A stretch of 18,420 bases of DNA from Alphaproteobacteria bacterium (GTDB taxonomy: Bacteria > Pseudomonadota > Alphaproteobacteria > Micavibrionales > UBA2020), in contig JAGXAX010000003.1 of the NCBI GenBank assembly GCA_018971405.1, positions 1 through 18,420 of the forward strand. Reading direction: 5' to 3'. The position numbers and the translations under genes were made by a program. How positions within the stretch are numbered: the first letter of the stretch is position 1; each line of letters begins with the position of its first letter. Under the pieces are notes generated by a model. The model saw nothing but the letters and a program-made list of their open reading frames with translations. It was not told the origin of the DNA and searched no databases. Below, piece after piece: positions 4,601-17,851 of this stretch.

Positions 4601-7963
<3,363 letters not shown>

Positions 7964-8029: not shown

Positions 8030-8060
8030 GCATGTTAGTTTCCCCTGACATGCGTTTTTT
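8030..8060 (+). promoter_or_regulatory. Hairpin with T6 tail in the leader of the 8077 regulator
   Basis: GCATGT (8030-8035) and ACATGC (8048-8053) are perfect inverted arms around a 12-nt loop, followed by T6 at 8055-8060, only 16 nt before the ATG at 8077. In RNA form it looks like a weak terminator or attenuator; in DNA form it could be a dyad operator. No plus-strand gene lies upstream for it to terminate. The stem is short, so function is uncertain. Confidence 0.35.
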
Positions 8061-8076
8061 CAAGTAAAGAGCGGAC

Positions 8077-8823
8077 ATGGAAATATTCCAGCACATGAAT
8101 TTGACAAAGTTCGACTTTCTGGTGAACAAAATCAGAAAGGAGGTCGAAATCTGGTGCGTGATCAACGTGATGTTCGACGCTGCGGCCAAACCCGACGCCG
8201 CCTTCGCCCTTCAGCAGCTGCACACCTGCTTCGGGGCGATCGACGGGGCGATCTTCCAGATGAAGAACGACGAATTCGTCATCCTCGTCAGGCTGGGGCG
8301 GGAGCCTGACCTCGACGTCGTCAAAACCGACGTCGCCAGAAAATTTCCGGACCACAAATGCAGCGTGGAGATCAACGACCTTACCAAAAACGGCCTGCAG
8401 GCCATCAATATCCGGATGAGGGCCGCGCATGCCGCCCGCGGCGCCAGCACGGCGGGAAAAGATCCCGCGGTGAAGAAGTTCTTCGTCGTCGATGACGACC
8501 TCTTCATCCGCAAGACCATGAACCGCCTCCTCTCCGCGGAGGGGCTGGTGGTGGAGTTTGCCGACAGCGCCGAGATCGTGGAGAACTACAAGAAGGGTAG
8601 GCCGGACATCGTATTCGTCGACCTGCACCTGCCCGACAGCTCGGGCATCGACGTCATGAACCGCCTCCTCGCAGAGGATGCCCGCGCCAATATCGTCATC
8701 ATCTCGGCAGACAGCACCGCCGACAACGTGCTGCAGGCACAGGCCAAAGGATCGAAAGGCTTCCTCGGCAAGCCGCTGTGCAAGGAAAAAGTCCACCAGA
8801 TCGTCAAAAGCCTCACCGGCTGA
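8077..8823 (+). CDS. Response regulator: degenerate GGDEF-like N-terminus plus C-terminal receiver
   Basis: A 248-aa cytoplasmic protein. Residues about 132-246 are a receiver: Asp139-141 acidic pocket (VVDDD), phospho-acceptor Asp182 (FVDLHLPDSSG), Ser210 and Lys232 (GKP). Residues 1-125 are unusual. They include FQMKNDEFVILVRL (60-73), which resembles the region around the GG[DE]EF signature with the two glycines replaced by KN, so I infer a degenerate GGDEF-like or unknown input domain. Diguanylate cyclase activity is unlikely. There is no DNA-binding output. The start ATG 8077 follows AAAGAG (8066-8071). It is divergent from the MHYT hybrid kinase and probably receives phosphate from its HPt, though this is inference. 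Confidence 0.85.
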   Translation: MEIFQHMNLTKFDFLVNKIRKEVEIWCVINVMFDAAAKPDAAFALQQLHTCFGAIDGAIFQMKNDEFVILVRLGREPDLDVVKTDVARKFPDHKCSVEINDLTKNGLQAINIRMRAAHAARGASTAGKDPAVKKFFVVDDDLFIRKTMNRLLSAEGLVVEFADSAEIVENYKKGRPDIVFVDLHLPDSSGIDVMNRLLAEDARANIVIISADSTADNVLQAQAKGSKGFLGKPLCKEKVHQIVKSLTG

Positions 8824-9937: not shown

Positions 9938-10633
9938 TCAGGCGTTCAGCTTGTACCCGACCCCCGGCGCGGTGATGATAAAGCGCGGATGCAGCGGATC
10001 GTCGCCGAGCTTCTGGCGCAGGTGCTGGGTGTAGATGCGCAAGTAATGGTTGTTCTCGGCCGAGCTTTTGCCCCAGACCTCCTGCAAAAGCTGTTTGTGC
10101 GTGACGATCTTCCCCGCATGTTTCACCAGCAGCGCCAGCAGACGGAATTCGGTCGGCGTCAGGCGGATTTCGTTCCCGTCGACCTTGACGGCGCGGTTCT
10201 GCGCATCGAACGACAGCCCGTGCGCCGTGAACGTCCCGGCCGCGGGCGCTACCGCGCGCCGCGCGCGGCGCAGCGCGGCCTTGAGGCGCGCGAGCAGCTC
10301 GCCGGTGCTGAACGGTTTGGTGAGGTAGTCGTCCGCGCCCAGCTCCAGCGCGGCGATCTTGTCCTGCTCCTGCCCGCGGGCGGAGAGGATGATGACCGGA
10401 ATGTCGCTCCAGCCGCGCAGGCTCTTGATGATCTCGAGTCCGTCCATGTCCGGCAGGCCGAGGTCGAGAATCAGGATTTCCGGCACGCGGGCCTTGAGGT
10501 GCGCAAGGCCTTCCCGTCCGGTGAGGGCGAAGGCAGGGCTGAAACCGTTGGAAACAAGCGCGGCGGCGAGGAACTTGCGGATCTCCGGCTCGTCCTCGAT
10601 TGCCAGCACAGAAATTTTCTGCGTTTCAGCCAT
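9938..10633 (-). CDS. kdpE: KdpE-like OmpR-family response regulator
   Basis: A 231-aa two-domain regulator. The receiver has Glu13/Asp14, Asp57 (LILDLGLPDMDG), Ser84 and Lys106 (TKPF). A winged-helix DNA-binding domain at about 135-231 contains RLTPTEFRLLALL, HKQLLQEVWG and the end APGVGYKL. The sequence style (EPEIRKFL, NNHYLRIYTQHLRQKL) is that of KdpE, the regulator of K+ transport. The start at 10633 is preceded by GGAGGAG 7 nt upstream and overlaps the kinase stop by 8 nt, so translation is coupled. No kdpFABC is nearby; the likely target is kup, divergent beyond the kinase gene. Confidence 0.92.
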   Translation of the reverse strand: MAETQKISVLAIEDEPEIRKFLAAALVSNGFSPAFALTGREGLAHLKARVPEILILDLGLPDMDGLEIIKSLRGWSDIPVIILSARGQEQDKIAALELGADDYLTKPFSTGELLARLKAALRRARRAVAPAAGTFTAHGLSFDAQNRAVKVDGNEIRLTPTEFRLLALLVKHAGKIVTHKQLLQEVWGKSSAENNHYLRIYTQHLRQKLGDDPLHPRFIITAPGVGYKLNA

Positions 10634-11675
10634 GCGGCGGCTCCTCCGAAACCTTCACCGCCACCGGCAGCGTGAAACTGAAGCGCGCGCCGCCTTCCGG
10701 CCTGTTTTCCGCCCAGATGCGCGACTGGTGCGCCCTGATGATGCCCTCGCAGATCGCGAGCCCGAGGCCGCTGCCGCTTTTGTCGCGCGCGCGGCGGGTG
10801 AACTTCTCGAATATCCTTTTCTCGTCGCCGGGCGCGATGCCGGGGCCGGCGTCCGCAACGCTGACGATGATCTCATCGCCGCGCGCGACGGCCGTGAGCG
10901 TGATGGCGGAGTTTTGCGGGGCGTATTTGACCGCGTTTTCCAGCAGGTTGACGAGCACCTGCTCGATCAGCAGCCCGTCCACGTAAACGAGCGCCAGGTC
11001 TTTCTCCACGCGCGTTTCCACCGTGTGCGCGCCCTCCGGCACCTGCGACAGCGCCGCGCCGATCAGCTCGTCGATGTAATAGGGCTGCCGGTTGAGGGCG
11101 ACCGCGCCGGATTCAATGCGCGTGATGTCGAGCAGGTTGGAAACAATACGGCTGAGGCGCGCGGCCTCCTGATGGATCGACCGCGCCAGCTCCTTGACCG
11201 TCCCTTCCGGCATGTCGTCCTGCATCAGGCTGCTGGACGCGCCGGTGATCGAGGCAAGCGGCGTGCGCAGGTCGTGCGACACGGAGCTGAGCAGGAGGTT
11301 CTTGATGCGCTCGTTTTCGGCGGCGACGGTCGATTCCCGCGTCAGCCGCTCCTGCCGCCGCAAGCTGATGGCCTGCCCGGAAATGACCATGCTGGTGATC
11401 AGCATGACGAGCAGCGTCAGCCACGAAGAGCGGTTGTACATCTCGAACGTATAAAGCGGCTCGACAAAGAAAAAGTTGTAGCTCGCGCAGCTTAAGGCCG
11501 AAAACAGCACCGACGGCCCGCGCCCGAAGCGCGCCGCCACGAACACCGATGCCGCGAGATAGATCATCACGGCGTCCGTCGGGTTCAAGACGACGCTCAA
11601 GGCTTTGGCGAGCAGCGTCGCCACGACAGTCACGGCGGCGCTGCCAAGATAGCGGCTGGGCAGGGCTTTTTCCAT
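10626..11675 (-). CDS. kdpD: Short KdpD-like sensor kinase (DUF4118-HisKA-HATPase only)
   Basis: A 349-aa inner-membrane histidine kinase related to the C-terminal part of KdpD. Membrane helices fill about residues 10-105 as a DUF4118-like module (RFGRGPSVLFSALSCASYNF, FFVEPLYTF). HisKA follows directly with VSHDLRTPLASI and His134; then the N box with Asn247 (LENAVKYAP), DAGPGIAPG and GSGLGLAICEGI. E. coli KdpD is 894 aa with N-terminal KdpD and universal-stress-type domains and a GAF domain; all three are absent here. The region upstream is 103 bp and then kup on the other strand, so this is a real architecture and not a visible truncation. ATG 11675 has AAAAAGGA 5 nt upstream. It pairs with the overlapping kdpE. 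Confidence 0.9.
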   Translation of the reverse strand: MEKALPSRYLGSAAVTVVATLLAKALSVVLNPTDAVMIYLAASVFVAARFGRGPSVLFSALSCASYNFFFVEPLYTFEMYNRSSWLTLLVMLITSMVISGQAISLRRQERLTRESTVAAENERIKNLLLSSVSHDLRTPLASITGASSSLMQDDMPEGTVKELARSIHQEAARLSRIVSNLLDITRIESGAVALNRQPYYIDELIGAALSQVPEGAHTVETRVEKDLALVYVDGLLIEQVLVNLLENAVKYAPQNSAITLTAVARGDEIIVSVADAGPGIAPGDEKRIFEKFTRRARDKSGSGLGLAICEGIIRAHQSRIWAENRPEGGARFSFTLPVAVKVSEEPPHG

Positions 11676-11733
11676 ACCCGTCCTTTTTACACCGAAATCT
11701 CCCTGAAATAACTTGATTTCATGCGGGATACCT

Positions 11734-11755
11734 CTTTTTTACGCCTTTTTTACGG
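11734..11755 (+). promoter_or_regulatory. Tandem T-tract repeat, candidate KdpE operator upstream of kup
   Basis: Two adjacent 11-mers, CTTTTTTACGC (11734-11744) and CTTTTTTACGG (11745-11755), match at 10 of 11 positions, so the repeat period is one helical turn. From memory, the E. coli KdpE site upstream of kdpFABC is a similar T-rich direct repeat with TTTTTATAC and TTTTTTTACAC. A related single copy, CTTTTTACACCG, lies at 11683-11694 but overlaps the kdpD ribosome-binding site on the other strand. The site is next to a kdpDE pair and a K+ transporter. Confidence 0.6.
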
Positions 11756-11765
11756 CGAAGCGGCC

Positions 11766-11773
11766 TATACAAT
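11766..11773 (+). promoter_or_regulatory. Candidate -10 element of kup (TATACAAT)
   Basis: TATACAAT lies 5-7 nt before the chosen kup ATG at 11779. No good -35 hexamer sits 17 nt upstream; that place is occupied by the T-tract repeat, as expected of an activator-dependent promoter. Transcription from here would give a leaderless or nearly leaderless kup mRNA. No strong Shine-Dalgarno is visible. Confidence 0.4.
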
Positions 11774-11778
11774 GGGCG

Positions 11779-13701
11779 ATGCAAAGCCTTTCCTATGAAA
11801 TAAACCGGAAACTGGCGGACGACCGCGGCGACGGCCACGGCAAGAGCGCGTTTTCCGTACTGATGCTGGGCGCGCTGGGCGTCGTTTACGGCGACATCGG
11901 CACGAGCCCGCTTTACACCTTGCAGCAGTCTTTTTCCCAGACCGGCCTGCCGGTCACGGCGGCGACCCTCTTTCCCTTGCTCTCGATGATCTTCTGGCTG
12001 CTGGTGATCGTCGTCTCCGTCAAATACGTCCTCTTCATCCTACGCGCCGACAACAAGGGCGAGGGCGGCAACCTCGCCCTGCTCGCCCTCGTGCTGCGCC
12101 TGACCCGCCCGTCGCCGCGCCTCTGCGCGCTGATGGGGCTGGCGGGCATTCTCGGCGGCAGCCTCTTTTACGCCGATGCCGCCATCACCCCCGCCATCTC
12201 CGTCCTCTCCGCCGTCGAGGGGCTGCGCGTCATCGCGCCGGAACTCGCGCACCTCGTCGTGCCGGTCACGCTCGTCATCCTCGTCGCCCTTTTCTCGGTG
12301 CAAAAATACGGCACGGGAAAGATGGGTGCGCTGTTCGGGCCCGTCATGCTGCTGTGGTTCGGCACGCTCGCCGTGTTCGGCGTCATGGGCATCCTCGGCG
12401 CGCCGCAGGTGCTGGAAGCCGTCAATCCCCTCTACGCGCTGCACTTCATCGCCGCACGCCCGATGATGTCCTTCGTGGCGATCGGCGCGACCATGCTCGC
12501 CGTCACGGGCGCGGAGGCGCTCTACGCCGACATGGGGCATTTCGGCGCGCCGCCCATCCGCGCCGCGTGGTTTTTCGTCGTCTGGCCGTGCCTCGTGCTC
12601 AACTACTTCGGGCAGGGCGCGCTGCTGCTGGCGAAGCCCGCCGCACTCGCCAACCCCTTCTACCTGCTGGCGCCGGCGGCGCTCCATGTGCCGCTGCTGC
12701 TGCTTTCCGCGGCCGCGACCATCATCGCCTCGCAGGCCGTCATTTCCGGCACCTATTCGATCACGCGTCAGGCCATGCAGCTCGGCTTCCTGCCGCGCAT
12801 GCGCATCCTGCACACCTCGGAAAAGGAACTGGGGCAGATTTACATGCCCTTCGTCAACTGGGCGCTGCTGGCGCTGGTGGTTTTCATCGTCTTCGTCTTC
12901 CCGAGCTCTGACAGCCTCGCCTCCGCCTACGGCCTCGCCGTGACGGGCGCAATGCTGATCACCAGCCTCATGGTCATTGCGGTCATGCGCCTCAAGTGGC
13001 GCTGGCGCTGGGCGTGGATCCTCGCGACCGCCGGCGTCTTCACCGCCATCGACGCCGTGCTCTTCTCCGCGACGACGACGAAATTCATGTCCGGCGGCGC
13101 GATGCCGGTCACCGTCGCCGTCATGATCTTCACCGCCCTCACCACCTGGAAAAAGGGGCAGGCCGCGCTCGACGACAGGATCGCCGGCCAGTCGGTCTCC
13201 ATCGACCGGTTTATCCGCGAAGTGCGCAACAGCCCTTTCGTGCGCGTGCCGGGAACGGCGATCTACATGACGCCGCACCACAACAGGGTGCCGAACGCGA
13301 TGATGCTGAACATGCGCCACAACAAGATGCTCCACGAGCGCGTGATCTTCCTGACCGTCATTTTCGAGGAGGTGCCGCGCGTGGCGCGCGAAAACCGCAT
13401 CCACATCGCCGCGCTGGGCGACGACTTCTACAAGATGGACGTGCATTACGGCTTCAACGACGAGCCGGACATACCGGAAGCCATGAACTATTGCCTCAAG
13501 CGCGGCATGGACTTCGACAGCACGGCGGGCGCGTCGTTCTACGTCGGCACGGATACCATCCTGCCGGTCGCGGGCGGCGCCATGCCCTTCTGGCGCGACC
13601 TGCTGTTCGCCATCATGAAGCAGAACGCCTCCAGCGCCGCGGAATATTACAGGATCCCGGCAGACCGCGTGGTCGAAGTCGGCGGCAGGTACGAACTTTA
13701 A
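11779..13701 (+). CDS. kup: Kup-type potassium uptake transporter
   Basis: A 640-aa inner-membrane K+/H+ symporter of the KUP/HAK/KT family. Landmarks are GVVYGDIGTSPLYTL (34-48), RADNKGEGGNLALL, GGSLFYADAAITPAISVLSA, TGAEALYADMGHFGAPPIR, LNYFGQGALLL and ASQAVISGTYSITRQAMQLG. About twelve hydrophobic helices are followed by a soluble C-terminal domain (VRVPGTAIYMTP, HNKMLHERVIFLT) ending RVVEVGGRYEL, as in E. coli Kup (622 aa). The frame opens at a TTG at 11713, but ATG 11779 gives the family's usual N-terminal length, so I use it. It is divergent from kdpDE and replaces the expected kdpFABC. I see no convincing terminator after it. Confidence 0.96.
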   Translation: MQSLSYEINRKLADDRGDGHGKSAFSVLMLGALGVVYGDIGTSPLYTLQQSFSQTGLPVTAATLFPLLSMIFWLLVIVVSVKYVLFILRADNKGEGGNLALLALVLRLTRPSPRLCALMGLAGILGGSLFYADAAITPAISVLSAVEGLRVIAPELAHLVVPVTLVILVALFSVQKYGTGKMGALFGPVMLLWFGTLAVFGVMGILGAPQVLEAVNPLYALHFIAARPMMSFVAIGATMLAVTGAEALYADMGHFGAPPIRAAWFFVVWPCLVLNYFGQGALLLAKPAALANPFYLLAPAALHVPLLLLSAAATIIASQAVISGTYSITRQAMQLGFLPRMRILHTSEKELGQIYMPFVNWALLALVVFIVFVFPSSDSLASAYGLAVTGAMLITSLMVIAVMRLKWRWRWAWILATAGVFTAIDAVLFSATTTKFMSGGAMPVTVAVMIFTALTTWKKGQAALDDRIAGQSVSIDRFIREVRNSPFVRVPGTAIYMTPHHNRVPNAMMLNMRHNKMLHERVIFLTVIFEEVPRVARENRIHIAALGDDFYKMDVHYGFNDEPDIPEAMNYCLKRGMDFDSTAGASFYVGTDTILPVAGGAMPFWRDLLFAIMKQNASSAAEYYRIPADRVVEVGGRYEL

Positions 13702-13908: not shown

Positions 13909-15990
13909 ATGGGCAGCATCTTGAAATATGACGGCCGGTATGTGAGCCGCGTGCTGGCACTCGTGGCCCTGTACTACTTCACATCGCGCCTCGGCTTCAG
14001 CCTTGCTTCCGTCGCCCAGCAGGTGACGGTCATCTGGCCCCCGACGGGCATTTCCCTCGCGGCCGTGCTGATGTTCGGCCCCGATATCTGGCTGGGCATT
14101 TTTCTTGGCGCCTTCCTTGCCAACATCACGATGCACGAGCCCGCCCTCGCCGCCCTCTGCATCGGCGCGGGCAATACGCTGGAAGCGCTGGCGGGCGCAT
14201 GGCTGCTGCGCCGTTTCGCCGGACCCGCGCCCAATCTTGCGCACGTGCGCGACGTTCTCTGCCTGATTTTGTTCGCCGCCATCATCAGCACCGCCGTGAG
14301 CGCGACCATCGGCACGACCAGCCTTTGCTTTGCGGGGCTGCAGCCGTGGACGCATTATTTTCCGGTCTGGTTCACATGGTGGCTGGGCGACGCGGGCGGC
14401 GACGTCATCGTCGCGCCCCTGATTCTGACCTGGTATTACAACCCGTATCTGAGCCTTTCCCGCCGCGGCGCGCTGGAAGCGGCCGCGCTGGCGCTCGCCG
14501 TCGCTCTCTACGGCATCGTCATCTCCTCGCAATCGGAGATGTTCGGCATCGCGCAGTTCTACCCCAGCACCGTCTTTCCGCTGCTGATCTGGGCGGCCAT
14601 CCGTTTCGGAACGCGCGGCGTGACGACCGTCAACTTCCTCCTCTCCGCCATCGCGATCGGCCTGACGGCGATGCACATGGGGCCGTTCTCGCAAATGCCG
14701 ACCGGCCGCGTGCTCGACGTTTTGCAGACCTTCACCATCATCGCGGGCGTTACGGGGCTGGTCATGAGCGCCGCGCTCAGGGAGCGCGCCGAATCGGAAG
14801 AAACCGAGCAGGAAAGCCGGATACGCCTTGACGTGGTGCTGGACAATATCGTCGACGGGCTGATCACGATCGACGAAAAGGGCACCATCCGCAGCTACAA
14901 CAAGGCCTGTACCACGATCTTCGGTTATACGGCCGCGGAAGTCGTGGGCCGGAACGTCAAAATGCTGATGCCGCAGGATTACGCCGCGCATCACGACGAA
15001 TATGTTTCCAACTACATGAAAACGGGCAAGGCCAAGATCATCGGCATCGGCCGCGAGCTCGAAGGCCTGCGCAAGGACGGCACGCTGTTTCCCATGGAGC
15101 TGTCGGTCGCGGAAGTGAAGATGGGGCGCGGCGTCAGGTATTTCAGCGGCATCATCCGCGACATCAGCGAGCGGAAGAACGCGGAGAAAAGGCTGCAGGC
15201 GGCGCACGACTACCAGCAGGAAATAATCGGCGACCTCCGCCAGAAGGAAGTGGAGCTGCTGCGCTATACCCAAGACCTCAAGCGCAGCAACCAGGAGCTG
15301 GACGACTTCGCCTACATCGCCTCGCACGACCTCAAGGAGCCGCTGCGCGGGCTTTTGACGCAGGCCTCCTTCCTGCTCGAGGACTACAAGGACAGGCTGG
15401 ACGCGGAGGGCCTGCGCCGCCTGCACCGGCTGCAATACCTGAGCCTGCGGATGGAGAAGCTGATCGGCGACCTGCTTTATTTCTCGCGTCTCGGCCGCAC
15501 CGACCTCGCCGTGCAGGAGCTCGACGTCGGCGAAGCCGTGAGCGAGATCCGGCAGATGATGGACACGCTCCTCAAGGAGAAGAACGCGCGCGTCGTCGTG
15601 CCGCGTTCCCTGCCGCCCGTCGTCTGCGACAAGCTCAGGATGGTGGAAGTCTTGCGCAATCTCATCACCAACGCCATCAAATACAACGACAAGCCGGAGC
15701 GCGTCGTGGAAATAGGTTTTCTGGAGAAGGCGCGCGCGCCGCACGGCGACGAAACCAACGTCTTCTACGTCAGGGACAACGGCATCGGCATCGCGCCGGA
15801 ATTTCACGAGGCCATATTCCGCATTTTCAAGCGGCTCGAGAATCCCGCCGCCAGCGGGGAGGAAGGCACCGGCTCCGGACTGACCTTCGTCAAAAAAATC
15901 ATCGAGCGGCACAACGGGCGCATCTGGCTTGAATCCGCGCCCGGCGCCGGGGCGACTTTTTACTTCACGATAGGAACGATAGACATATGA
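13909..15990 (+). CDS. MASE1-PAS histidine kinase with FixL-like heme-PAS residues
   Basis: A 693-aa membrane sensor kinase. Residues about 10-290 form a MASE1-type multi-helix membrane domain (VIWPPTGISLAAVLMFG, WWLGDAGGDVIVAP). A PAS domain (305-420) follows with FGYTAAEVVGRNVKMLMP, HHDEYVSNYM, IIGIGRELEG and KDGTLFPMEL. This closely resembles the FixL heme PAS; His362 and Arg382 are 20 residues apart, as are heme ligand His200 and Arg220 of Bradyrhizobium FixL. A coiled coil leads to a phytochrome-kinase-type HisKA, DDFAYIASHDLKEPLRG with His473, and an ATPase with Asn588, DNGIGIAP and GTGSGLTF. There is no fused receiver. The stop overlaps the next regulator's start as ATGA. Oxygen or NO sensing is inferred; heme binding is unproven. 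Confidence 0.92.
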   Translation: MGSILKYDGRYVSRVLALVALYYFTSRLGFSLASVAQQVTVIWPPTGISLAAVLMFGPDIWLGIFLGAFLANITMHEPALAALCIGAGNTLEALAGAWLLRRFAGPAPNLAHVRDVLCLILFAAIISTAVSATIGTTSLCFAGLQPWTHYFPVWFTWWLGDAGGDVIVAPLILTWYYNPYLSLSRRGALEAAALALAVALYGIVISSQSEMFGIAQFYPSTVFPLLIWAAIRFGTRGVTTVNFLLSAIAIGLTAMHMGPFSQMPTGRVLDVLQTFTIIAGVTGLVMSAALRERAESEETEQESRIRLDVVLDNIVDGLITIDEKGTIRSYNKACTTIFGYTAAEVVGRNVKMLMPQDYAAHHDEYVSNYMKTGKAKIIGIGRELEGLRKDGTLFPMELSVAEVKMGRGVRYFSGIIRDISERKNAEKRLQAAHDYQQEIIGDLRQKEVELLRYTQDLKRSNQELDDFAYIASHDLKEPLRGLLTQASFLLEDYKDRLDAEGLRRLHRLQYLSLRMEKLIGDLLYFSRLGRTDLAVQELDVGEAVSEIRQMMDTLLKEKNARVVVPRSLPPVVCDKLRMVEVLRNLITNAIKYNDKPERVVEIGFLEKARAPHGDETNVFYVRDNGIGIAPEFHEAIFRIFKRLENPAASGEEGTGSGLTFVKKIIERHNGRIWLESAPGAGATFYFTIGTIDI

Positions 15991-16421
15991 CCGCCTCCTA
16001 TTTCGGACCGCGCCAGATTCTCGTCGTCGACGACAACGCGGATGATTACGAGGCGCTCGCGCGCGCCTTCAAAAAAACCGGCCTTTACGGCCACGTCACC
16101 CTCTGCACGTCGGGACAGATGGCGCTCGACAGGCTGAAAGGGGGGGCGGAACTGCCCACATTGATGCTGCTTGACCTGAACATGCCGGGTCTGGACGGTT
16201 TTCAAGTGCTGCAGGCCGTAAAAAGCGACGAAAGGCTCAAAGCCATCCCCATCGTCATCTGGACGACGTCCTCCAACGAGAAAGACATCAATGCCTGCTA
16301 CCGGCTCGGCGCCAACGCCTACATGCAAAAGCCCGTCATTTTCGACCAGCTGGTCGAGTCGGTAAAGCGTCTCAAGGAATACTGGTTTGAAGCGGCGGTT
16401 TTGCCTGTCTCTGAGTGCTAG
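15987..16421 (+). CDS. Rcp1-like single-domain response regulator
   Basis: A 144-aa stand-alone receiver. The acidic pocket is Asp15/Asp16 (VVDDNADD), phospho-acceptor Asp63 (LLDLNMPGLDG), Thr94 and Lys115 (QKP). The C-terminal KRLKEYWFEAAVLP is typical of Rcp1-type regulators that partner phytochrome-like kinases. It has no output domain, so it acts by protein contact or as a relay intermediate. Translation is coupled to the kinase through the ATGA overlap, with AGGAA 10 nt upstream. It is very similar to the receiver of the gene at 17141 (shared AFKK-GL, DI--CY--GANAY patterns), which suggests duplication. Confidence 0.92.
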   Translation: MTASYFGPRQILVVDDNADDYEALARAFKKTGLYGHVTLCTSGQMALDRLKGGAELPTLMLLDLNMPGLDGFQVLQAVKSDERLKAIPIVIWTTSSNEKDINACYRLGANAYMQKPVIFDQLVESVKRLKEYWFEAAVLPVSEC

Positions 16422-16635
16422 CATACGCCGTTCGGGGGTCTCCCCGATCATCGATATTCGCCAAAAATCATGGTTTACAAGGGGATATCCGCCGCTCTTG
16501 CCGGAAACGGCCGCATTGCGAGGCTTTTTTTGCTAAAACTTTATTGTAGTTTCATACAAGGTAAATCATGCCGCGTATAAGATGAAATTAGTACCGGCCG
16601 GAGATTTTTAAAAACGCGAACAGTTTTGGTGGACC
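16422..16635 (+). promoter_or_regulatory. Intergenic region: possible weak terminator and new promoter
   Basis: A 214-bp gap. A GAAA-capped 4-bp hairpin (16500-16511) is followed by an imperfect stem (16510-16524) and T7 (16525-16531), a weak terminator candidate for the kinase-regulator operon. The downstream part is AT-rich. TATAAG at 16576-16581 is a possible -10, and TTGCTA (16530) with CATACA (16553) at 17-nt spacing is a weaker alternative. GGTGG just before ATG 16636 is a close-set RBS. The later two regulators may thus have their own promoter. Confidence 0.35.
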
Positions 16636-17127
16636 ATGACAAAACATGAAATTCTACTGGTGGAGGATTCTCCGGAAGACGCCGATCTGGTGCGCAGAAC
16701 GATTGACAGGCACCTGCCCGGTCAGTTCAGCGTGACGCATAAAAAGAACATAAAGGATGCGGAATCCCATATCAAGGCGCACGGGAACGAGATCAGCGTC
16801 GTGCTGCTCGACCTCGGGCTGCCCGATACCAGCGACGGACGGGATACGTTCGAGCACATGAAGGAGTATGCGCCGAAAGTTCCCATCGTCGTCCTGACGG
16901 GGATGGAGGACCATGAGCTCGCTCTCGCGCTGGTCAGGGAGGGCGCGGAAGATTTCGTGAACAAGGGGCTGATACACGAAAAGCCGGAACTGCTGCGCAA
17001 CGCCCTCGAATTCGCCTCCTGCCGTCACGAGCTGATCGGCGACGTGCATAAGAAGCATCAGAAAAACATCGACGAAAAGGACGAAATTATCGCCTGGATG
17101 AGCGGAGGGTATTCGGTCAAAATGTGA
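16636..17127 (+). CDS. Stand-alone response regulator with extended C-terminal tail
   Basis: A 163-aa receiver protein. It has Asp11 (LLVEDSPEDADLVRR), phospho-acceptor Asp59 (VVLLDLGLPDTSDG), Thr88 (VVLTGMED) and Lys110 in NKGLI. The usual Pro after this Lys is replaced by Gly, as in some receivers that end in a VKG motif. This type lacks a DNA-binding domain. Residues about 134-163 form a hydrophilic, probably helical tail rich in His/Lys/Asp (HKKHQKNIDEKDEIIAW), which could be a docking segment. It is followed after 13 nt by the receiver-HTH gene, so the two are probably cotranscribed. Which kinase addresses it is unknown; the MASE1-PAS kinase upstream is the nearest. Confidence 0.88.
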   Translation: MTKHEILLVEDSPEDADLVRRTIDRHLPGQFSVTHKKNIKDAESHIKAHGNEISVVLLDLGLPDTSDGRDTFEHMKEYAPKVPIVVLTGMEDHELALALVREGAEDFVNKGLIHEKPELLRNALEFASCRHELIGDVHKKHQKNIDEKDEIIAWMSGGYSVKM

Positions 17128-17140
17128 GAAACGGAAATGA

Positions 17141-17851
17141 ATGGCACATAACACAGGGCCGATATTGCTGGTAGAAGACTGCGCCGACGACGCCGAAGCC
17201 GCGACGCACGCCTTCAAAAAGGCCGGTCTGGCCAATCCGCTGGCGCATGCCGCGTCGGCCGAGCAGGCGTTTGCATATCTGCAAGCCTCCGCGCGGCCGT
17301 GCCTTATTCTTCTCGATCTGAACATGCCCGGCATGGGCGGCCGCAAGTTCCTCGAAACGCTCAAGCAGGACGCCGCGCTGAAGGATATTCCCGTCGTCAT
17401 CATGACGGCATCGGATTGCGAACAGGACATCAAGTCCTGCTACGCCATGGGAGCCAACGCCTATATCGTCAAATCCTCCGACCTTGCGGGGCTGGCGACG
17501 GCCATCCGCCGGCTCAAGGAGCATTGGCTGGACACCGTGGCGCTGCCCGCCGTCTTCGAAGACGGCGGCGTATGGGAAACAGCTCCCCTCCCCGCCGCCG
17601 GAAAAGACGACGGGCCCTCCGGCCACCGCGCATACGCCCCGCCCGATGAAAAGGCCCTGCTGACGCCGCTCGAAGCAGAGACTCTCACGTGGATTTCCAG
17701 AGGCAAAAGCCGCTGGGAAACGGGCGTCATTCTCGGCGTCAGCGAGGACACGGTGAAGGCGCGGCTCGAAAGATGCCGCCAGAAGCTGGACGCCTCCAAC
17801 ACGACGCACGCCATCGCCATCGCCATCCTGCGCGGCTTGCTCGCTCAGTAG
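17141..17851 (+). CDS. Rcp1-like receiver fused to a LuxR-type HTH
   Basis: A 236-aa response regulator. The receiver (1-135) has Glu12/Asp13 (LLVEDCADDAEA), Asp59 (LLDLNMPGMGG), Thr89 and Lys111, the last followed by Ser instead of Pro (IVKSSDL). It keeps the Rcp1-type end RRLKEHWLDTVALP. After a Gly/Pro-rich linker (140-170), a LuxR/GerE helix-turn-helix occupies 172-234 (LLTPLEAETLTWISRGKS, WETGVILGVSEDTVKARL, AIAIAILRGLL). Rcp1-like receivers are normally without output, so this fusion is notable and makes it the only DNA-binding member of the cluster. The start ATG 17141 lies 13 nt after the preceding stop with only a weak CGGAAA RBS. It converges on the MEDS gene with 6 nt between stops. 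Confidence 0.92.
   Translation: MAHNTGPILLVEDCADDAEAATHAFKKAGLANPLAHAASAEQAFAYLQASARPCLILLDLNMPGMGGRKFLETLKQDAALKDIPVVIMTASDCEQDIKSCYAMGANAYIVKSSDLAGLATAIRRLKEHWLDTVALPAVFEDGGVWETAPLPAAGKDDGPSGHRAYAPPDEKALLTPLEAETLTWISRGKSRWETGVILGVSEDTVKARLERCRQKLDASNTTHAIAIAILRGLLAQ

Follow-up and report, generated by a model that had tools for sequence, protein, structure and literature searches.

A linkage of KdpD/KdpE-type regulators to the K+ importer Kup has already been published for Azotobacter, where kdpD- and kdpE-like genes form one transcription unit with kup and are named as regulators of KupA (PMC4465626). In E. coli, the site of KdpE has a 6-5-6 layout with a TTTA core and is contacted through R193, R200 and T215 (PMC3264566). 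E. coli KdpD variants that lack the N-terminal region still respond when K+ is limiting, yet fail in repression at higher K+ (PMC2714519). The K+-sensing part of KdpD is a matter of dispute, which the multidomain build of the protein makes hard to settle. Here we describe a stretch of 18,420 nucleotides from an alphaproteobacterium of the order Micavibrionales (contig JAGXAX010000003.1 of assembly GCA_018971405.1; hereafter the window), in which a KdpE-like regulator and a minimal KdpD-like kinase are encoded next to kup (Table 1). The parts of this arrangement, their conserved linkage, a promoter box and the loss of kinase domains are evident from the sequence, and control of kup by the kinase/regulator pair is well supported at that level. 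We consider it likely that the locus is a kup-dedicated KdpDE offshoot, in which the short kinase would sense low K+ or a correlate and the regulator would activate kup via 11738-11754. A natural kinase made of DUF4118 and a catalytic core, paired with one K+ importer and one clear candidate promoter site, offers a clean system for the question of K+ sensing.

The original prediction described a 349-residue kinase built from DUF4118, HisKA and HATPase only, without KdpD, Usp and GAF domains and with a gene overlapping that of the regulator, and Pfam bears out the coordinates, sizes and domains. DUF4118 spans residues 9-114, HisKA 125-190 and HATPase_c 234-339; the sole other match at E <= 0.001 is a second ATPase model overlapping HATPase_c, and at this threshold neither the KdpD serine-kinase domain (PF02702) nor Usp nor GAF has a match in the kinase. 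The reduction of the kinase is genuine. Its gene shares 8 nt with that of the regulator, its catalytic histidine is present within SSVSHDLRTPL, and a basic cluster (R106, R107, R110 and R113) lies downstream of the fourth transmembrane helix (TM4). The top NCBIfam model of the kinase is NF007793, yet with 259.5 against a cut-off of 1123 the equivalog score is not reached; likewise, the regulator has the KdpE model NF007820 as its top NCBIfam match with 249.9 bits, below the cut-off of 325. The regulator retains D57, S84 and K106, its nearest solved structure in the PDB is E. coli KdpE, and its R199, R206 and T221 are the equivalents of the three DNA-contacting residues named above. AlphaFold2, applied to the window kinase with 35 relatives as input, gave a mean predicted local distance difference test (pLDDT) score of 87.2 and a predicted template modelling (pTM) score of 0.62, with helices at residues 6-28, 32-50 and 52-70 followed by a single unbroken helix, 82-150, that runs from TM4 into the first helix of the DHp domain (pLDDT 73-78 at residues 111-140). 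Since TM4 joins the kinase core directly, with no module between, signal transfer would be direct.

On the other side of the promoter region, kup is complete and divergent from the kinase gene, as originally read, with a corrected start codon. The protein scores 578 bits with PF02705 and 151 bits with PF22776 (K_trans and K_trans_C domains present), exceeds the cut-off of TIGR00794 (566.7 versus 539.6) and stays below that of NF008015 (707 versus 883). Translation probably starts at ATG 11779 and not at the listed TTG 11713, because the conserved regulator box sits within the supposed first codons of the longer form and because the orthologous open reading frames in G004 and G006 start at this ATG, with 640 and 641 residues. 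The divergent region is then 103 bp long and contains a KdpE-type box with the same layout as the E. coli site, embedded in a longer repeat at 11735-11754. With up to three mismatches allowed, the 20-bp form of the box matches the window once and was never matched in 200 shuffles of it, and TTTACR-N5-TTTACR occurs a single time in this genome, at the kup/kinase promoter; a chance origin of the box was rejected on these counts. Each of the ten linked family loci described below has the same box upstream of kup, and the box was absent from six family kups without a linked kinase, including the two other copies of this genome (for one of which about 118 bp of upstream DNA was examined). Across the five genus promoters, much of the sequence has drifted around a conserved box and -10 region. 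Between the box and the -10-like hexamer lie 11 or 13 bp in the genus loci and 22-23 bp in the other five, so that the spacing differs by roughly one turn of the helix. Because the window kup carries the box and the two other Kup copies of this genome do not in the upstream DNA examined, its earlier description as a transporter of constitutive type is doubtful for this copy, and kup should not be assumed constitutive.

The linkage of a short kinase to kup recurs in related genomes. Among 55 genomes searched (own, genus, family and order), 12 bear DUF4118, and a short DUF4118 kinase is tied to kup in ten of these. The layout is divergent in five loci of the genus of the window (G000, G003, G004, G005 and G006); in five family loci of other genera (G008, G010, G011, G016 and G017), kup comes first and the kinase follows downstream in the same direction, with kup and kinase of G017 on two contigs, of which the kinase contig begins with the C-terminal 96 residues of a Kup. 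G007 and G013 have only full-length KdpD, and G011 has two additional, weaker DUF4118 places away from kup. Searches for KdpA gave G004, G010 and G013, plus a single weak and partial hit in G020; thus, the kup pair and a kdp system coexist in G004 and G010. Indeed, the genus mate G004 has the kup pair together with kdpFABC and full-length KdpD, so that the wording of the original prediction, a pair wired to Kup instead of KdpFABC, fails as a rule. Equally, a kdpFABC operon with full-length kdpD elsewhere in the same genome would not, taken alone, contradict the wiring to kup. The prediction of a reduced K+-responsive circuit driving kup therefore stands with respect to control of kup, through linkage and promoter box, and to the reduction, but not with respect to exclusivity.

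The draft genome that has the window as its contig 188 comprises 1.83 Mb in 364 contigs and is 88.6% complete, which makes absences from it weak evidence. As predicted, no kdpFABC lies within the window; KdpA was not found elsewhere in this draft either, so that no kdpFABC target of regulation is seen, and TrkH was likewise not found. A single DUF4118 protein is present in the draft, and Kup occurs at three places, of which one is a fragment at a contig end.

At class level (289 genomes), kup lies beside a short DUF4118 kinase only in G000 and G316, the latter with a degenerate TTTATG-N5-TTTATG 93 bp upstream of kup; in G120, a full-length KdpD is located about 7 kb from kup. At phylum level, where 20 stretches were taken from 398 genomes and the counts of adjacency are lower bounds, kup and a DUF4118 protein occur together in 18 of the 20 stretches, from 17 genomes, with a tail-to-tail arrangement in L320. 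A Rhodocyclaceae metagenome-assembled genome (MAG), STC_64 (L114), has the short kinase, regulator and kup, with TTTACG-N5-TTTACG upstream of the kinase. In a Halomonas MAG (L112:3241-8715), the genes run from TrkH through a DUF4118 kinase lacking the serine-kinase domain and then a regulator to TrkA, and this is, judged by its gene content, a KdpDE-like pair within a Trk locus.

Domain loss was followed in a non-random Pseudomonadota sample, with named loci picked by similarity (80, of which 40 passed the kinase filter) and phylum loci picked by kup adjacency; L238 and L306 failed the filter and are outside the kinase counts. Kinases were scored as near kdpA/kdpB within less than 6 kb and as near kup within less than 4.2 kb, 12 further rows being near neither. 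The serine-kinase domain is present in 33 of the 34 kdp-linked kinases, the sole exception being L118, in which a separate serine-kinase chain was not searched for. Of the 30 rows near kup, one has the domain, namely the full KdpD of G010, which belongs to its own kdp operon; once this row, the duplicate L109 and the non-kinase L305 are set aside, all 27 kup-linked kinases are without it, and a Usp match is retained in ten of them. In this sample, the serine-kinase domain follows kdpFABC and is absent with a kup partner, which provides independent support for the recent claim that the domain serves the pump.

In a tree of 72 kinase-plus-regulator rows, from which L305 as a non-kinase and the long-branched L150 were left out, the kup label changes eight times, at least seven of them on well-supported branches. 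A single origin of the 27 kup-linked kinases as one clade was rejected by the approximately unbiased (AU) test (p 0.00265), and so was a single clade of the ten family members (p 3.1e-7); both constrained-tree tests reject one ancestral kup-KdpDE unit inherited unchanged. The phylogeny indicates that kup-linked KdpDE has more than one origin. Within the genus, the five short kinases form a clade with 100/100 support, separate from the full-length KdpDs of the family.

We infer regulator binding, activation of kup over repression, the K+ signal and its set point as follows. The short kinase would use its remaining parts, that is, the DUF4118 membrane domain, the adjoining basic segment and the kinase core, to sense a shortage of K+ or something correlated with it, such as low turgor; the core or the arginines after TM4 may alternatively be the sensing parts themselves. 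It would then phosphorylate the KdpE-like regulator, two molecules of which would occupy the tandem half-sites just upstream of the -10, covering the -35 position, and recruit RNA polymerase to kup; the regulator may also act on its own divergent operon. Because the known target of the serine-kinase domain is KdpB of the KdpFABC pump, the domain would not be needed at kup and was shed, together with Usp and, in the genus of the window, the GAF-length linker. Given that the truncated E. coli KdpDs do not repress when K+ is higher, kup may stay switched on at moderate K+ under the short form, and such an upward shift of the set point would suit a lower-affinity importer.

Judged by the response of truncated E. 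coli KdpDs (PMC2714519), K+ is a plausible signal for the short kinase. The pair could instead control kup while reading turgor, membrane state, pH or Na+, as a general envelope sensor without Usp and GAF. Both domains are absent from the window kinase, the K+-sensing sites suggested so far for E. coli KdpD lie in the transmembrane and GAF parts (PMC11018627), of which GAF is missing here, and KdpD has been described as an integrator of several intracellular parameters (PMC2714519). Yet the target gene encodes a K+ importer, DUF4118 is retained and the regulator box matches that at kdpFABC within the same genus, and we regard a signal other than K+ as unlikely. A regulator that represses kup, or that mainly controls its own divergent operon with kup as a bystander, would be consistent with a promoter region common to the kinase gene and kup and with a box lying over the -35 position of the presumed kup promoter. 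However, in the five sister-genus loci, where kup comes first and the kinase follows co-directionally, the box is still before kup and ends 22-23 bp ahead of the -10, which is a usual position for an activator; repression or a bystander role thus appears improbable. Chance might also have kept the short kinase near kup as a remnant of a lost, decayed kdp operon, a view that gains something from the loss of kdp in part of the genus: G005 retains a pair of boxes, a porin gene and the end of kdpE. This reading, to which we attach very little probability, was rejected largely through the coexistence of both systems in G004 and G010, and it also conflicts with the separate clade of the short kinases and with the conservation of catalytic residues and promoter box.

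Several results weigh against activation of kup through the box. A sigma-70 scan gave no full promoter at the kup promoter, and a terminator scan gave nothing there either. The ordinary KdpE of S. fredii showed no binding to the kup promoter of that species (PMC9239096). The looser TTTA-type box is mostly absent at linked kups outside the family, nine of its ten occurrences at linked kups being within it. Finally, the box pattern has 27 matches across 14 genomes versus 28 for the reversed control. Because this count is at background, the case for the box rests on position: 19 of the 27 matches are at kup, kdp, outer-membrane-type genes or a kdpE relict, and eight are elsewhere. A comparison of 28 linked with 79 unlinked kups, in which the Fisher values are descriptive since related genomes are not independent, gave the TTTACR box at 9/28 versus 1/79, the one unlinked case being G017, which is linked across its contig break. 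For the looser TTTAYR form the counts are 10/28 versus 2/79, the second unlinked case being L304, with no kinase in the DNA examined. A repeat at 11 bp (at least 8/9 matches) is found at 13/28 linked versus 8/79 unlinked kups, and other spacings from 7 to 16 bp at 0-3 of the 28 linked ones. In other families, the half-site sequences differ and some promoters show none by eye; we also note a TTGAT-type motif among linked promoters, whose p-value is no test because the motif was found by inspecting the same promoters.

A further reduced form stands beside kup in two alphaproteobacteria (L305 and L306). The two proteins are 64% identical, are both encoded divergently from kup and consist of DUF4118, a GAF-length stretch, a DHp remnant and a KdpE-type winged helix. 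The phospho-histidine position of the DHp is Glu in L305 and Thr in L306, and neither an ATPase nor a receiver was found (Pfam on L305, BLAST on both). L305 shares 38% identity over 320 residues with a Sphingomonas KdpD and, from residue 376, 55% with the DNA-binding part of KdpE of the same species; its kup promoter and that of L306 have AATCCACATGGAATCTTTATG in common, and that of L305 also has GAATC repeated at 11 bp. From this composition, they look like one-component membrane regulators derived from a two-component pair by reduction, likewise clean test objects for K+ sensing. It may be that Kdp-type sensing was rewired to kup on several occasions within Pseudomonadota, always with loss of the serine-kinase domain and with a tandem regulator site at the kup promoter, and with stepwise shrinkage from Usp+GAF kinases through kinases with a GAF-length linker and the 349-residue kinase to the alphaproteobacterial one-protein form; on both the rewiring and the series, we are evenly divided. 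If true, DUF4118 and the adjoining helix can act as a sensor, and phosphorylation is optional.

The box is also found at other genes. In G004, it lies upstream of kdpA, whereas a box of TTTACR form was not found on the kdpA side in G010. Boxes precede divergent BBP2 porin genes (PF07642) in G004, G010, G011 and G017 and a Gcw_chp gene in G008. Such outer-membrane porin genes with their own box stand beside kup or kdp at L057:10485-11636, L060:8574-9725, L058:218-1396 and L243:4030-5175 (the last identified by BLAST only), which suggests a joint K+ uptake regulon of porins and kup/kdp that would span both membranes. In G016 (L244:4737-5682), a BBP2 porin gene with a KdpE-type box upstream is split into several reading-frame pieces. 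In G005, where no KdpA was found, a box pair lies between a BBP2 porin gene and the final 55 codons of kdpE (L242:5670-7166), an arrangement suggestive of a trace left by deletion of a kdp operon.

The remainder of the window is rich in additional signalling genes, including a MASE1-PAS kinase followed by response-regulator genes (13909-17851, +) and a 1120-residue MHYT hybrid kinase with receiver and Hpt (4601-7963, -). Two long open frames without a Pfam match (1494-2855 and 8035-8796, both -) may be shadow frames that lie opposite genes in DNA of high GC content.

Table 1. Positions of the kup-linked regulatory parts in the window and of the one-protein forms in their own loci.
Feature	Position	Strand	Remarks
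KdpE-like response regulator, 231 aa, OmpR/PhoB-type	9938..10633	-	receiver and Trans_reg_C (winged helix)
Minimal KdpD-like histidine kinase, 349 aa	10626..11675	-	DUF4118, HisKA (H134), HATPase_c
KdpE-type box TTTACG-CCTTT-TTTACG	11738..11754	+	two 6-bp half-sites 11 bp apart, divergent promoter
-10-like stretch TATACAAT	11766..11773	+	predicted by eye, 11 to 13 bp past box
kup, K+ uptake permease, 640 aa	11779..13701	+	ATG 11779; 662 aa if from TTG 11713
One-protein form beside kup, L305 (G477)	6476-7921	+	Pfam and BLAST
One-protein form beside kup, L306 (G617)	6208-7623	+	BLAST

In the titles and abstracts of the literature searched (few subscription papers, no preprints), neither a KdpE-type site at kup nor the one-protein form was encountered. 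A survey of KdpD (PMC11018627) took in only species with annotated Kdp and counted the full-length variant alone where one existed, so that kup-linked forms would have been missed. The same source describes split KdpDs in Acidobacteriota and Chloroflexota, which resemble the window in having a TM/GAF/DHpCA histidine kinase chain without serine-kinase domain, but differ in that the serine kinase is a second chain and KdpFABC is present. S. fredii is, like the organism of the window, an alphaproteobacterium with KdpDE and kup; there, however, KdpE bound the kdpFABC promoter and not that of kup, and the available parts of the report describe no kup-linked pair (PMC9239096). With KdpDE-kdpFABC of E. 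coli, the window shares DUF4118, HisKA and HATPase, a KdpE-type regulator and the layout of the binding site (PMC3264566, PMC2714519, PMC11018627), whereas the E. coli target is the KdpFABC pump and its KdpD also has serine-kinase, Usp and GAF domains. For KdpD1-KdpE1-KupA of Azotobacter, the available parts of the paper give no promoter site or domain analysis (PMC4465626). As in the window, kdpD- and kdpE-like genes there share one locus with kup; in Azotobacter kup is the distal gene of the unit, whereas it is divergent in the window and co-directional in the five sister-genus loci.

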